A stretch of 5,519 bases of DNA from Methylococcaceae bacterium (lineage in GTDB: Bacteria; Pseudomonadota; Gammaproteobacteria; Methylococcales; Methylomonadaceae). Position numbers and translations under genes: made by a program. The notes below the pieces were generated by a model. The model searched no databases. It saw only the letters and a program-made list of their open reading frames with translations, and had not been told where the DNA came from. Below are positions 1-5,519 of the stretch, one piece after another. The stretch's first letter is position 1; every line of letters starts with the position of its first letter. The stretch is taken from the NCBI GenBank assembly GCA_009925045.1, contig RFQK01000115.1, positions 1 to 5,519 on the forward strand, in the 5' to 3' direction.

Positions 1-400
1 AAAATGGTGAGATTTTACGCGGACCACCTTGAGCATAGGTCGCATAACATTCTTCGATACCGGTGATACCACCGATACCGGCACCAATCGCCACACCGAT
101 ACGCTCAGCGTTTTCTTCAGTGACTACAAAGCCTGAATCTTCAATCGCCTGACAACCTGCCGCAATCCCGTAATGCACAAATCCGTCCATGCGTTTGGCA
201 TCTTTTTCGTTGATGTATTCGCCTATATTAAAATTGCGAATGACACCACCGAAGGTTGTAGCAAAACTGGAAATATCGAAAGAGTCTATTGGACCGATAC
301 CACTTTTGCCATTGACAATACCTTCCCAGGTATCTGCAACATTATTGGCTAGGGGTGTAACGGCGCCTAAGCCCGTTATGACAACTCGACGTGTGCTCAC
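1..400 (-). CDS. fabF: Beta-ketoacyl-ACP synthase II (FabF), N-terminal part, runs off the window
   Basis: This is the N-terminal 133 residues of a 3-oxoacyl-ACP synthase II, the cytosolic condensing enzyme that elongates acyl-ACP with malonyl-ACP in type II fatty acid synthesis. The translation begins with the FabF hallmark MSTRRVVITGLGAVTPLANN. It continues through GKSGIGPI (about residues 31-38), a KRMDGFVHYG segment (about 69-78) and IGAGIGGITGIE (about 105-116), all typical of the ketosynthase N-terminal half. The catalytic Cys and two His residues would lie beyond position 1, so activity cannot be judged. I place the start at the GTG ending at 400 because it gives exactly the family N-terminus. 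The ribosome binding site is weak (GGTAG a few bases upstream), in contrast to that of acpP, which suggests lower translation than the upstream ACP gene. It lies 82 nt downstream of acpP and is probably co-transcribed with it. Confidence 0.96.
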   Translation of the reverse strand, partial: MSTRRVVITGLGAVTPLANNVADTWEGIVNGKSGIGPIDSFDISSFATTFGGVIRNFNIGEYINEKDAKRMDGFVHYGIAAGCQAIEDSGFVVTEENAERIGVAIGAGIGGITGIEECYATYAQGGPRKISPF

Positions 401-888: not shown

Positions 889-1830
889 TTAAACAGCCCG
901 CGAACTGACATTCTTTAAAATCTCCTCCAAGGGTGCCAAGTTAAGCTTAATTCTGAATAAAACCTGATGATTTTCCAGCAAACCGAAACACTCATAGGTT
1001 CTTAGCATGACAGATGAATGATTTAAGGTGTTTTCCGGAGATTCAGGCAGTTGTCGCACTAAAATGTGCAACATATCGTTGTTCTTGATCTGTCTCAGCA
1101 AAACCCTATCCACTGAGATGTCGTGCGAGGTGTAAACCATGGGGTTACGCTTAAAATCATGCTGTTCCAGCAAGGCTTTTTCTAGTAAAGCGCCCGAAGT
1201 CAAACTACATGGAAAAATTTCCGGGTAATTGGCCAAATCAGCCAGTTCGTCAAAATAATCAGACTGTTCCGCCAACGAACCCGACAGAAAGTTTTTAACA
1301 TTGCCGTTATGCATCCATTTGCGTTTCAGGAAAAAATTTGAGCCTGGCACCATGGTTTTATCGGCTAAGCCGGAGAGATCAGGTAATGCCTGAAAAGACT
1401 CAGTTGCCAAGAACAACGGCGTTTGGGTCTCTTTTTTATAAGCTAACAGAATGGTTTTTCCGTTTGCCTTTAGACTTACCCGGTTGGTTAAGGTTAAATC
1501 CGGAATGGTGTTGATTAATGTTTTGCGAATATCAAGCGTGACGTCTTGTTTAGGGCGCAAAGCATTCACGAAAATAATTTGATAGTTACTAAAACGTAAC
1601 TGATTTTCGGCAATGATACGGTCTTCATGATGCGCTTCCCGGTATAAACGCATCTGGTATTCAATCAGAGTATTGAGTTGAAAACCTAGGACTATCGGGC
1701 CTTTAAAGGGATTATGGGTAATCTGCAACCATTTACGCTTGTCATGGAACAAATTAAAGTCATCACTGGCATTACGAGCGGCTTCTATATGAATCTGATC
1801 AAAAACAAATACCTGATCCTTCATGGTCAT
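889..1830 (-). CDS. MaoC-like, probable double-hotdog protein of unknown substrate
   Basis: This is a 313-residue soluble protein with no signal peptide or membrane segment visible. Residues 20-50 resemble the MaoC / R-specific enoyl-CoA hydratase signature: ASDDFNLFHDK followed by NPFKGPIVLGFQL. The usual form is S-G-D-x-N-P-x-H, and here Asp24, Asn26 and His29 occupy the catalytic and structural positions. The rest of the first half (to about 150) and the second half (about 160-305, including FPCSLTSGALLEKAL and paired beta-strand-like segments near the end) are compatible with two hotdog folds in tandem, but the second half lacks a clear catalytic motif. A dehydratase or hydratase acting on an acyl-ACP or acyl-CoA is the simplest guess; a thioester-binding protein without catalysis is possible. 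The start ending at 1830 follows AAGGG by 10 nt; a second ATG two codons in is an alternative. It is the last gene of the ubiG-sufT operon, 20 nt after sufT and just before the acpP promoter. It looks more AT-rich than its neighbours. Confidence 0.75.
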   Translation of the reverse strand: MTMKDQVFVFDQIHIEAARNASDDFNLFHDKRKWLQITHNPFKGPIVLGFQLNTLIEYQMRLYREAHHEDRIIAENQLRFSNYQIIFVNALRPKQDVTLDIRKTLINTIPDLTLTNRVSLKANGKTILLAYKKETQTPLFLATESFQALPDLSGLADKTMVPGSNFFLKRKWMHNGNVKNFLSGSLAEQSDYFDELADLANYPEIFPCSLTSGALLEKALLEQHDFKRNPMVYTSHDISVDRVLLRQIKNNDMLHILVRQLPESPENTLNHSSVMLRTYECFGLLENHQVLFRIKLNLAPLEEILKNVSSRAV

Positions 1831-1850: not shown

Positions 1851-2399
1851 TTAGAATAATCCCAATTGTACCTTGGCGACTTCCGACATCATTTCCCTAG
1901 CCCAAGGCGGATCCAGAACCACTTCAACGTTTACCGATGCAACACCGGGCAAGGCTTTGATTGATTTCTCTACATCGCCCTGTATCACAGGCCCCATGCC
2001 ACAACCGGGTGCGGTCAAAGTCATTTGTATGTGGACATCGTTACCGCCCTCAGCATTCGACTTGGCGCTACAGTGATAAACCAGCCCCAAGTCGACAATG
2101 TTAACCGGAATTTCAGGATCATAAACGGTTTTCATGACTTCCCAGCAATTACGCTCTACAGCAGCGGCGTCGACATCATCCACCAGATTTTGCAGGGTTT
2201 GCACTTGTTTACCCAATGCATCTGCATCTGCGCCGGCAATCCGCACCATATTGCCGTAATCGGTAATCACCGTATAGTTATTACCAAGCGCCTGATGAAT
2301 AGTCACTTCCTGCCCCTGTTGCAGAACACTATGATAACCATCAGGAATGGTCACAACGTTGACATCACGGGTTAAAAATACGACTTCTCTTTCTGCCAT
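1851..2399 (-). CDS. sufT: Fe-S cluster assembly factor SufT (DUF59/MIP18 domain)
   Basis: This 182-residue cytosolic protein matches the long SufT form: an N-terminal region of about 80 residues (with the segment GQEVTIHQALGNNYTV) followed by a MIP18/DUF59 domain. The domain motifs are clear: YDPEIPVNIVDLGLVY at residues 93-108, TAPGCGMGP at 129-137 with the conserved Cys133, and DPPW near 163. SufT proteins are known to help mature Fe-S proteins, especially when demand for clusters is high. Other suf genes are not in the window, so here sufT stands apart from the usual suf operon. It starts 7 nt after the SDR stop codon and ends 20 nt before the hotdog gene, so co-transcription is likely. 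The ribosome binding site is poor, which suggests translational coupling to the SDR gene. Confidence 0.92.
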   Translation of the reverse strand: MAEREVVFLTRDVNVVTIPDGYHSVLQQGQEVTIHQALGNNYTVITDYGNMVRIAGADADALGKQVQTLQNLVDDVDAAAVERNCWEVMKTVYDPEIPVNIVDLGLVYHCSAKSNAEGGNDVHIQMTLTAPGCGMGPVIQGDVEKSIKALPGVASVNVEVVLDPPWAREMMSEVAKVQLGLF

Positions 2400-2405
2400 A
2401 GGTTT

Positions 2406-3128
2406 TTAAAACTCTCTAACATCAATAACTTGACCCGTCTTACCTATGCTATCCGCACTGAACAGATAACGATAAACAGGTTGTAAACTTTCCATATCCG
2501 GTAAGGTGCTTTTATCTTCGGCCGGATACGCTTTTTTTCGCAACGGACAGTCAACCGGGCCTGGCACTAGGGTGTTGACGCGAATTTTTCCGGCGGATTC
2601 CAGTTCTTCGGCCAAAATCCCTGCAAAGCCTTCTAGCGCAATTTTAGAAACACCGTAAGCGCCGCTGTAGGCGCGTGGCAACCTAACGGCTGAATCGGAC
2701 GTAAAGACAATCGATGCGTATTCACTTTGATTCAAAACTGGCAGCAAGACCCGCGTTAATAAAAAAACCGCATTCAGGTTAACATTCAAGGTATGTCCCC
2801 AATCGCGGGTTTTATGCGCGGCAATCGGGGTATACGCTGAAAATTCAACAGCGGAATGCAGAACTCCCTGTAAGCTTCCGTAATGATTGCTGATCGCGTC
2901 CGCCAAGTCCTGATATTCCTGTTCACTCGCGCCCGCAAGATCAAAGGGATACAGCATCGGTTCGCAGCCGCCAGCGCTGGTGATCGCGTCATAAATCTTT
3001 TCCAGCTTGGGTATACTTTTATCCAGCAAGATAATATGAGCACCTTGCGTCGCTAAAGCCAACGCAGCTGTGCTGCCAAGCCCGCCACCGGCGCCTGTAA
3101 CTAAAATAACTTGTCCTGTTAAAGGCAT
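2406..3128 (-). CDS. YciK-like short-chain dehydrogenase/reductase
   Basis: This is a 240-residue classical SDR with a Rossmann fold. The nucleotide-binding motif TGAGGGLG is at residues 11-18, NVNLNA at 115-120, and the YxxxK motif is Tyr158 to Lys162 in GAYGVSKIALEG. The sequence and the genomic position after ubiG and the phosphatase match the YciK family, whose physiological substrate is not established. Two positions are unusual. The segment FTSDSAVRLPRAYSGAY aligns without gaps to the YciK segment FTSSSVGR...GAY and puts Asp145 where the catalytic Ser normally sits 13 residues before the Tyr; Ser144 and Ser146 flank it. The NNAG-type motif is replaced by HSAV (91-94). Activity may therefore be altered. 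The start overlaps the end of the phosphatase gene by 10 nt with no clear Shine-Dalgarno, so translation is probably coupled. It could be a FabG-type ketoreductase only by fold. Confidence 0.87.
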   Translation of the reverse strand: MPLTGQVILVTGAGGGLGSTAALALATQGAHIILLDKSIPKLEKIYDAITSAGGCEPMLYPFDLAGASEQEYQDLADAISNHYGSLQGVLHSAVEFSAYTPIAAHKTRDWGHTLNVNLNAVFLLTRVLLPVLNQSEYASIVFTSDSAVRLPRAYSGAYGVSKIALEGFAGILAEELESAGKIRVNTLVPGPVDCPLRKKAYPAEDKSTLPDMESLQPVYRYLFSADSIGKTGQVIDVREF

Positions 3129-3793
3129 GTTGCTGATTCTATCCAGTGCATTAAATGGCTAGGATGACTGATGAGTGCATCAGCCCCCCAGTGTTCGGGT
3201 TGGTCATCAGGTTTCAGATAACCATACATGGCAACCAAGGCCTTCATGTCAGCCTGTTTGCCTGCCGTAATATCATGGACGGCATCACCAATATAAACAC
3301 AATTTGCTGGTGAAACACTTGCTCGACGACAGGCTTCAAACATAGGCTCAGGATGTGGTTTGCTGAACGCTGTTGTGTCACCACTCACCGCACAAGCCGC
3401 CCGGCTGTCTAGCTGCAACGCTGCCAGCAAGGGATTGGTAAAGCGTTCGCGTTTATTGGTCACAACACCCCACTTTAAACCTTTGGCTTCTATCAACTGC
3501 AACACTTCTGCCATACCTGCAAATAACTCACTGCTGTCGGCTATATGGTTTTGATAGCTGTCCAGCATATAGTCCAGCATCTGAGCTTTTAACTCATCAC
3601 TATCTGAAACCCTACTCTGGTTAATCATCGCTAAAGCCCCATGAGAGATGAAAGGCCGTAAGGCCTCCTCCTCGGCGGGAAGAAAACCAAAAGCCAGAAG
3701 GGTGCGATTAAGACTCGCCAGTAAATCAGGTGCGGTATCCACCAAAGTACCGTCAAGATCAAACAACACACATTCCAGTTTGAAATCGGTCAT
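3119..3793 (-). CDS. mupP: HAD phosphatase, probable N-acetylmuramic acid 6-phosphate phosphatase (MupP-like)
   Basis: This 224-residue cytosolic HAD-superfamily hydrolase carries all four motifs: FDLDGTLVDT with nucleophile Asp12 and Asp14, Thr112 in WGVVTNK, Lys145 in SKPHPEP, and GDAVHD with Asp170 and Asp174. The cap between about residues 20 and 85 is the helical type of phosphoglycolate phosphatases, so automated annotation would probably say Gph. The MupP assignment is preferred because of the segments WGVVTNKRERFTNPLL and YGYLKPDDQPEHWGAD, which resemble Pseudomonas MupP, and because of the position between ubiG and a yciK-like gene, as in Pseudomonas. MupP dephosphorylates MurNAc-6-P in the recycling route that continues through AmgK and MurU. 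The start lies 3 nt after the ubiG stop without a good Shine-Dalgarno, so expression is likely coupled to ubiG. Phosphoglycolate phosphatase remains the alternative. Confidence 0.8.
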   Translation of the reverse strand: MTDFKLECVLFDLDGTLVDTAPDLLASLNRTLLAFGFLPAEEEALRPFISHGALAMINQSRVSDSDELKAQMLDYMLDSYQNHIADSSELFAGMAEVLQLIEAKGLKWGVVTNKRERFTNPLLAALQLDSRAACAVSGDTTAFSKPHPEPMFEACRRASVSPANCVYIGDAVHDITAGKQADMKALVAMYGYLKPDDQPEHWGADALISHPSHLMHWIESATCL

Positions 3794-3796
3794 GTT

Positions 3797-4521
3797 TTAT
3801 TCAGGACGTTGAAAAACGGCAATGTAATTGACATCAATATCCTTTCCTAAACTAAATTGTTTGTTAAAAGGATTGTATTGAATACCGGCCATACCGACTA
3901 TTTCCAGACCCGCTTCACGCGCCATCTGACTCAACTCTGCCGGCTTGATAAAAGTTTTGTAATCATGGGTACCTTTAGGCACCATATTCATTAAGTATTC
4001 AGCTGCCACGATCGCCAGAAGAAAAGCCTTGGGCACCCGATTTAAAGTGGAGAAAAACACCAAGCCGCCTGGCTTGACTAATTGTGCACAGGCTTGAATC
4101 ACAGAAGCAGGATCTGGCACGTGTTCCAACATTTCCATACAGGTAACATGATCAAAACTGGCCGGTTGTTCAGCCGCAAGGGCTTCAGCACTGATCACTC
4201 GATACTGTGCGCTGATACCGGTTTCCAGACCATGTAAATCCGCGATATCAATCAATTCGCTACTCAGATCAATACCAATAGCATCGGCTCCGGCCTTAAC
4301 CAAACCCTCAGTCAAAATACCACCACCACAGCCGACATCGACTAAACGCTGACCTTGAATGTTGGCATAGCGTTGAATAAAGTCCAGACGCAAAGGATTA
4401 ACATGATGCAATGTCCAGAACTCGCCATTGGCATCCACTCGCCATTGGCATCCCACCAACGCTCGGCCTGAGAGCCAAATTTATTGATTTCATGTAAATG
4501 AACGTTTTCGGTTGCTGTCAT
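3797..4521 (-). pseudogene. ubiG: ubiG, ubiquinone-biosynthesis O-methyltransferase, frameshifted by a 17-bp duplication
   Basis: UbiG is the SAM-dependent methyltransferase that performs both O-methylation steps of ubiquinone synthesis. The natural ATG ends at 4521 and encodes MTATENVHLHEINKFGSQ, then AERWWDANGE, the conserved UbiG start. A perfect 17-bp tandem duplication (4420-4453) then shifts the frame, and this reading stops at a TAG at 4344-4342 after 59 residues. The rest is intact in another frame from about 4459 to 3797: HHVNPLRL, the SAM motif VDVGCGGGI, CMEMLEHVPDP, KPGG and MVPKGTHDYKTFIKPAEL. Removing one repeat copy restores a continuous 235-residue UbiG, a normal length. In the intact frame no ATG precedes the SAM motif, but TTG (ending 4459, 7 nt after an AGG) or GTG (ending 4456 or 4438) could give a product of up to 220 residues lacking the first 22 or more. 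It may be a real mutation, a phase-variable state or a sequence error. mupP follows after 3 nt. Confidence 0.88.
4420..4453. repeat. Perfect 17-bp tandem duplication inside ubiG
   Basis: Two adjacent identical copies of ACTCGCCATTGGCATCC (plus strand) occupy 4420-4436 and 4437-4453. Read on the coding strand, each carries the codons for DANGE. Because 17 is not a multiple of three, the second copy breaks the ubiG frame. The flanking bases differ on both sides, so the repeat is exactly 34 bp with no third partial copy. It is a simple duplication, not a mobile element: there are no terminal inverted repeats or inserted foreign sequence. Confidence 0.97.
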
Positions 4522-4584: not shown

Positions 4585-5519
4585 TTATGCTTGCAACTTC
4601 TGTTGCCAGCAAGCCACGCGCTGCTTGACCTCATCCAGATCAATACTGGTGAGCTGTCTTTGATTTAATAACTGTCTTCCCGCCACCCAAACATCACTTA
4701 CCTGATGCCTAGATGCTCCATAGACGAGATGTGACAGTGGGTTAAATAAGGGCTGCGCCTCAATATCAGCAACATCGATAGCCACTACATCGGCTGACTT
4801 ACCTTTGCATAATGATCCGATCTCGTGATCCAGACCTAAGGCCTTAGCGCCATTCAAGCTGGCCATTTCTAAAGCCTGAGCCGCCGATACGGCAGTCGCA
4901 TCTCCAGCCACAGCCTTTGCTATTAAAGCGGCTGTTCGCATTTCACCTAACATATCGAGGTCGTTATTGCTCGCCGATCCGTCGGTCCCTAAAGCCACAT
5001 TGATACCAGCCTCCAAACAGGCCGCCACCGGGCAGAAACCACTAGCCAATTTAAGATTGGATTCTGGGCAATGCACGATATGAGCACCGGTCTGAGCAAA
5101 GCGACTGATATCCGCTTCTGTCAATTGCGTCATATGCACAGCCATAAACGCTGGGGATAACAAACCTAAATCTTCAAGGCGCTGCAAGGGTGAGACACCA
5201 GTCTTAGCCGTCTGATCAGCAACTTCAAAGGCGGTTTCATGAACATGCATGTGGATACTCAAATCCAGTTCATTAGCAAAACTCAGCAGTTTTTGCAGGG
5301 GAGCATCCGAAACGGTGTAAGGCGCATGCGGAGCAAACGACCAACTCAATAAAGGCTGATGCCGCAGTTGTTCGTGCAAAGCTAAACCTTTACTAAAATA
5401 CTCATCAGGATCTTTGGCCCATGCAGTCGGAAAATCAAAAACGATCAGACCTAAATTGGCTCGCACCCCCGCCTGAATGGCTTGTTGCGCCACCACTTCA
5501 GGAAAAAAATACATATCAT
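4585..5519 (-). CDS. mtaD: 5'-methylthioadenosine / S-adenosylhomocysteine deaminase, 5' end outside window
   Basis: These are the C-terminal 310 or so residues of an amidohydrolase of the TRZ/ATZ family; the reading frame stays open past the window end, so the N-terminal part with the first metal-binding HxH is missing. Counting from the Met whose codon ends at 5514: His63 in PHAPYTVSD, HMHVHET at 88-94 (metal ligand His90 and catalytic Glu93), His127 in AVHMTQL, and HCPESNLKLASG at 148-159. The metal-binding Asp178 lies in LGTDGSASNNDLDMLGEMR. This pattern is that of MTA/SAH deaminases, zinc enzymes that convert methylthioadenosine or S-adenosylhomocysteine to the inosine form. The Met at 5514 is internal, not the start: DMYFFP is a conserved internal segment of the family. 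Placement before ubiG matches Pseudomonas PA3170, an MTA deaminase. Other amidohydrolases such as chlorohydrolase-type or guanine deaminases are less likely. Confidence 0.88.
   Translation of the reverse strand, partial: DMYFFPEVVAQQAIQAGVRANLGLIVFDFPTAWAKDPDEYFSKGLALHEQLRHQPLLSWSFAPHAPYTVSDAPLQKLLSFANELDLSIHMHVHETAFEVADQTAKTGVSPLQRLEDLGLLSPAFMAVHMTQLTEADISRFAQTGAHIVHCPESNLKLASGFCPVAACLEAGINVALGTDGSASNNDLDMLGEMRTAALIAKAVAGDATAVSAAQALEMASLNGAKALGLDHEIGSLCKGKSADVVAIDVADIEAQPLFNPLSHLVYGASRHQVSDVWVAGRQLLNQRQLTSIDLDEVKQRVACWQQKLQA

Follow-up and report, generated by a model that had tools for sequence, protein, structure and literature searches.

A 17-base doubling that breaks ubiG in a methanotroph draft genome is most likely an assembly error

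UbiG is the bifunctional O-methyltransferase of ubiquinone synthesis (TIGR01983; E. coli structures 4kdc, 4kdr, and 5dpm, matched by sequence), and E. coli lacking ubiG is described as viable and in use as a laboratory strain (PMC12457515). Two described phenomena come closest to the broken ubiG gene analyzed here. Many apparent pseudogenes in bacterial genomes are attributed to assembly errors by Cooley and Wright (2024; PMC11017572). In slippage phase variation, as described for Agr variants of S. aureus (PMC6686034), the length of a coding sequence changes in a way that can revert; in that report, an isolate carrying a duplication inside agrA yielded no revertants. Like the spurious pseudogenes described by the former authors, the gene is broken here and whole in a near-identical assembly, and several genes are broken in the same draft; it differs from them in that its break is a 17-base doubling, whereas the other clear breaks in the draft are losses. 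With the Agr variants as described it shares a change in coding length that is revertible in principle, but it consists of two 17-base copies in a housekeeping gene, with no tract in relatives and no sign of switching. Our searches of the literature on short reversible duplications, UbiG truncation, essentiality in Methylomonas, and false duplications from gap closing found nothing on this case.

The window is a whole contig of 5,519 bases (C19) from a draft genome (G000) of 1,998,120 bases in 478 contigs, 83% complete, which appears to be close to Methylomonas. Members of that genus lead an aerobic life with ubiquinone. The contig carries the following genes, all on the minus strand:

2-400, minus strand: start of fabF, cut by the contig end
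483-743, minus strand: acyl carrier protein
889-1830, minus strand: 313-residue protein without family (no Pfam or NCBIfam match)
1851-2399, minus strand: SufT
2406-3128, minus strand: YciK-like SDR gene, frame intact, overlapping the end of the MupP-like gene
3119-3793, minus strand: MupP-like phosphatase gene, downstream of ubiG, frame intact
4521-3797, minus strand: ubiG, frame broken
4585-5517, minus strand: TRZ/ATZ-type hydrolase, cut by the other contig end

The 313-residue protein, encoded between acpP and sufT, has a counterpart in genome G003 (84% identity over 309 residues). A second UbiG that might serve as a back-up was rejected, none being present in the draft: the genome search proposed in an earlier, sequence-only reading of the contig found, in this 83% complete assembly, a next family match of 43.6 bits, far under the cut-off of 102.95. 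The draft carries an intact UbiA and an intact Ubi hydroxylase.

The break in ubiG is composed of the following features:

4420-4436, minus strand: 17-bp unit, second copy in the ubiG reading direction
4437-4453, minus strand: 17-bp unit, first copy in the ubiG reading direction
4342-4521, minus strand: ubiG start frame (59 aa) from ATG 4521, with 28 residues of UbiG, then out of frame to a stop
3797-4459, minus strand: remainder of ubiG in another frame (220 aa) from TTG 4459, with UbiG residues 24-235 from 4435 on
4436-4438, minus strand: GTG in the downstream UbiG frame, spanning the repeat junction; candidate start of a UbiG minus its first 23 residues

The perfect tandem duplication that the sequence-only reading had held responsible for knocking ubiG out of frame lies where it was claimed, with the claimed effect. 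The repeat (4420-4453; period 17, 2.0 copies, 100% match) shows matching confined to its two copies, a run of 17 with none beyond, and it is the sole perfect tandem repeat with a unit of 10-300 in the 49 readable sampled contigs (336,982 bases); it is not due to chance. With no other example in those 49 contigs, tandem doublings were rejected as a draft-wide mark. The frame from ATG 4521 does run, as had been read, through the conserved WWD segment and into the second copy, inside which it departs from UbiG after residue 28, and it stops at 4342 after 59 residues. The 220-aa frame (TTG 4459 to 3797) belongs to UbiG at 240.1 bits against the curated TIGR01983 cut-off of 102.95. Together the two frames hold the residues of an intact 235-aa UbiG; with the WWD segment in one and the rest of the protein in the other, the gene as written in the contig has no single open frame.

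Removal of one copy had been predicted to give a full 235-residue UbiG, and a natural protein of that length bears this out. P0001 (235 aa), encoded on a contig of 35,821 bases in another assembly, is identical to the start frame of the window over residues 1-28 and to the other frame over residues 24-235; the identity is one of protein sequence. It came from a search in which 7,999 candidates were scored and the best 120 of 7,917 matches listed; P0002-P0007, likewise 235 aa long, show 98-99% identity in the part that was matched.

The existence of this intact allele, with identical protein sequence, bears on whether the doubling could be a recent, real duplication in a single strain that has an inactive ubiG and has lost, or is losing, ubiquinone synthesis. 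Tandem doublings such as this one are an ordinary kind of mutation; the copies match perfectly and do not form a homopolymer, the draft has no other UbiG, and both flanks encode the P0001 protein, so a mixture of distant strains is not needed. We nevertheless regard a real lesion as unlikely: besides the intact allele, the retention of UbiA and a Ubi hydroxylase indicates a pathway otherwise kept where looked at, and ftsH and dnaX are also broken in this draft, a combination difficult to reconcile with a living cell, since E. coli requires both FtsH and the tau form of DnaX. The sequence-only reading had offered a recent lesion, a reversible switch, and an assembly error, and had leaned away from sequence error; its argument from the non-homopolymer repeat does count against miscalled bases, but a faulty join is untouched by it.

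Comparison with relatives had also been proposed, a single copy at this place being taken as the mark of a sequence error, and a single copy is what P0001 and the loci of relatives present. Among 60 other genomes, 56 have a full-length UbiG match without internal stop (E 1e-80 or better); the four that do not (G009, G029, G033, and G050) are drafts 78-85% complete, and G029 has a UbiG piece of 78 residues. The locus set comprised 109 loci, 29 from the 60-genome search and 80 from a genome scan whose nearest named relatives are Methylococcales (108 distinct, L004 and L032 being the same). In all 109 the UbiG frame is open over at least 220 codons and the WWD segment is in frame, and none has a tandem repeat with a unit of 10-44 at this position or up to 90 bases from it in either direction; nine relatives, when aligned to the window, have a single copy.

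These loci weigh against a reversible slippage switch turning ubiquinone synthesis on and off. Two adjacent perfect copies could in principle slip to one, and an intact allele is present in essentially the same organism (P0001); were the doubling real and reversible, a methanotroph population would keep ubiquinone-off cells that regain synthesis by slipping to a single copy, a proposition we consider far-fetched. The repeat is found in none of the 109 loci, it has two copies only, ubiG is a housekeeping gene, and no notable hairpin occurs at the repeat (z -0.13). A search with the 59-aa product matched just three proteins (P0121-P0123), none with the out-of-frame tail, and a doubling shared by other metagenomes was rejected on the same ground. 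Beyond the two perfect copies and the intact allele, nothing found speaks for a switch, which we judge highly improbable.

P0121-P0123, of 100, 89, and 63 aa, are short metagenome proteins that begin as UbiG and depart from it at other points; breaks of ubiG in metagenome assemblies are not unique to this draft.

Translation might instead restart at TTG 4459 or GTG 4438, giving a working UbiG minus its first 23 residues. The signals pointed out in the sequence-only reading are present: an AGG stands 7 nt ahead of TTG 4459, and GTG codons lie in frame with it at 4456 and 4438, the latter created across the repeat junction; what is left of the frame is still recognized as UbiG, at 240.1 bits. 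The suggestion that a shortened enzyme could result is nonetheless weakened by what the missing part contains. Numbered relative to the first W of WWD, N(-16), E(-11), F(-7), and the two W show no variation across the 109 loci; 108 of these loci also keep K(-8), and 108 keep A(-3). The product from TTG 4459 would begin with eight foreign residues before entering UbiG at residue 24, and among the 120 listed of 7,917 matches none extends to the very start of the 220-aa form, query coverage being 96% at most. Because the invariant N, E, F, and two W are lost, a restart product is likely to be inactive, and rescue by this route seems extremely improbable.

Other genes of the draft are broken as well. 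To the window we added 60 further contigs of the 478 (C1-C41 minus C19, and about every tenth from C60 to C250); 12 of these 61 are all N, leaving the 49 contigs and 336,982 bases given above. In a first pass with 483 frames of at least 120 aa from G003, under a stricter rule blind to short N-terminal breaks like that of ubiG, 56 counterparts comprised 42 clean, 13 partial, and 1 split. A second pass, looser for short second pieces, used 844 frames of at least 100 aa from 1,057,607 bases of G003 (62 stretches); its 97 counterparts comprised 65 clean, 24 partial, and 8 split between frames. Six of the eight are clear and two weak, a division made after the cases had been seen. One weak case (L144) has as its second piece a 21-residue match with E 1.0, and the other (L154 near 2.6 kb) has a divergent start. 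The clear splits are ubiG, a 1,028-residue transporter-like protein, an OsmC-family protein, FtsH, a GloB-like hydrolase (which scores below its family cut-off), and DnaX; those other than ubiG lie as follows:

L112 near 14590: break in the transporter-like gene
L115 near 3921: break in dnaX
L125 near 3305: break in the osmC-family gene
L129 near 4672: break in ftsH
L154 near 8990: break in the GloB-like gene

All five lack bases relative to G003, by a net of about 50 to about 370. For dnaX the comparison could be brought closer, with P0124 (537 aa, on a contig of 81,399 bases), the best of 7,982 matches, 120 of them listed. The draft pieces are 99.4% identical to it over residues 1-348 and 98.4% over residues 411-537; residues 349-410 are missing and the frame is changed. 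At two loci, ubiG and dnaX, the draft is therefore broken where a near-identical protein is whole elsewhere.

Controls gave few splits: 1 of 43 for closed genomes against G003 (with a second piece of 13 residues) and 0 of 47 for G003 against closed genomes. With the draft's own frames against G003 the count was 3 of 87, and L129, which bears the ftsH break, accounts for two of the three. Closed genomes against the draft gave 1 of 5, again ftsH. The excess in the draft (8/97 versus 1/90 in controls that come from other genome pairs than draft versus G003) has a Fisher P of 0.036; for the clear cases alone, P is 0.12 (6/97 versus 1/90) or 0.029 (versus 0/90). The raised rate of split genes, to be weighed against the single split in the stricter first pass, may be read as support for faulty assembly, not as proof.

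Contig sizes in the draft have a pattern of their own: 43 of 61 sampled contigs have a length that is a multiple of 30 or differs from one by a single base, against an expectation of roughly one in ten (binomial P 2e-29), which raises the suspicion that the assembly went through stepwise trimming or processing of some sort. Along with the fragmentation into 478 contigs, the pattern speaks for an assembly error. The position of the ubiG break bears no relation by eye to this 30-base pattern. Among the sampled contigs there are no shared 31-mers and, counting against an assembly error, no end overlaps of at least 12 bases.

An intact copy elsewhere, encoding an otherwise identical protein, and the other broken genes in the draft (including ftsH and dnaX) make assembly error the most likely explanation. 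From the sequences compared, we consider it very probable that the 17-base doubling arose in assembly and that the organism itself has an intact ubiG. Two sequence pieces, probably sharing a 17-base end, may have been joined with the shared end written twice; where a true gap lay between pieces, such joining would lose bases, and where they overlapped by 17 bases it would double the overlap. We infer that faulty joins are the common cause of all the breaks, the join at ubiG having kept its overlap and the others having lost bases. The overlap mechanism rests on a single case, the ubiG doubling being the sole one in the sample with a unit of at least 10. At the ubiG locus itself, natural loss in a few strains would give the same picture. 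Given the viability of E. coli lacking ubiG, it is P0001 and the pattern across genes that carry the argument, rather than any vital role of ubiG; joint loss of continuous UbiG, FtsH, and DnaX in a living aerobe is unlikely.

For genome scans this locus is a warning: when a fragmented draft shows a striking lesion in a vital gene, the first step should be comparison with near-identical proteins elsewhere and with how often genes are broken in that assembly. Read literally, the present draft would depict an organism that has no continuous UbiG, FtsH, or DnaX. Were the doubling real, the ubiquinone pathway of a methanotroph would be broken, a surprising finding.
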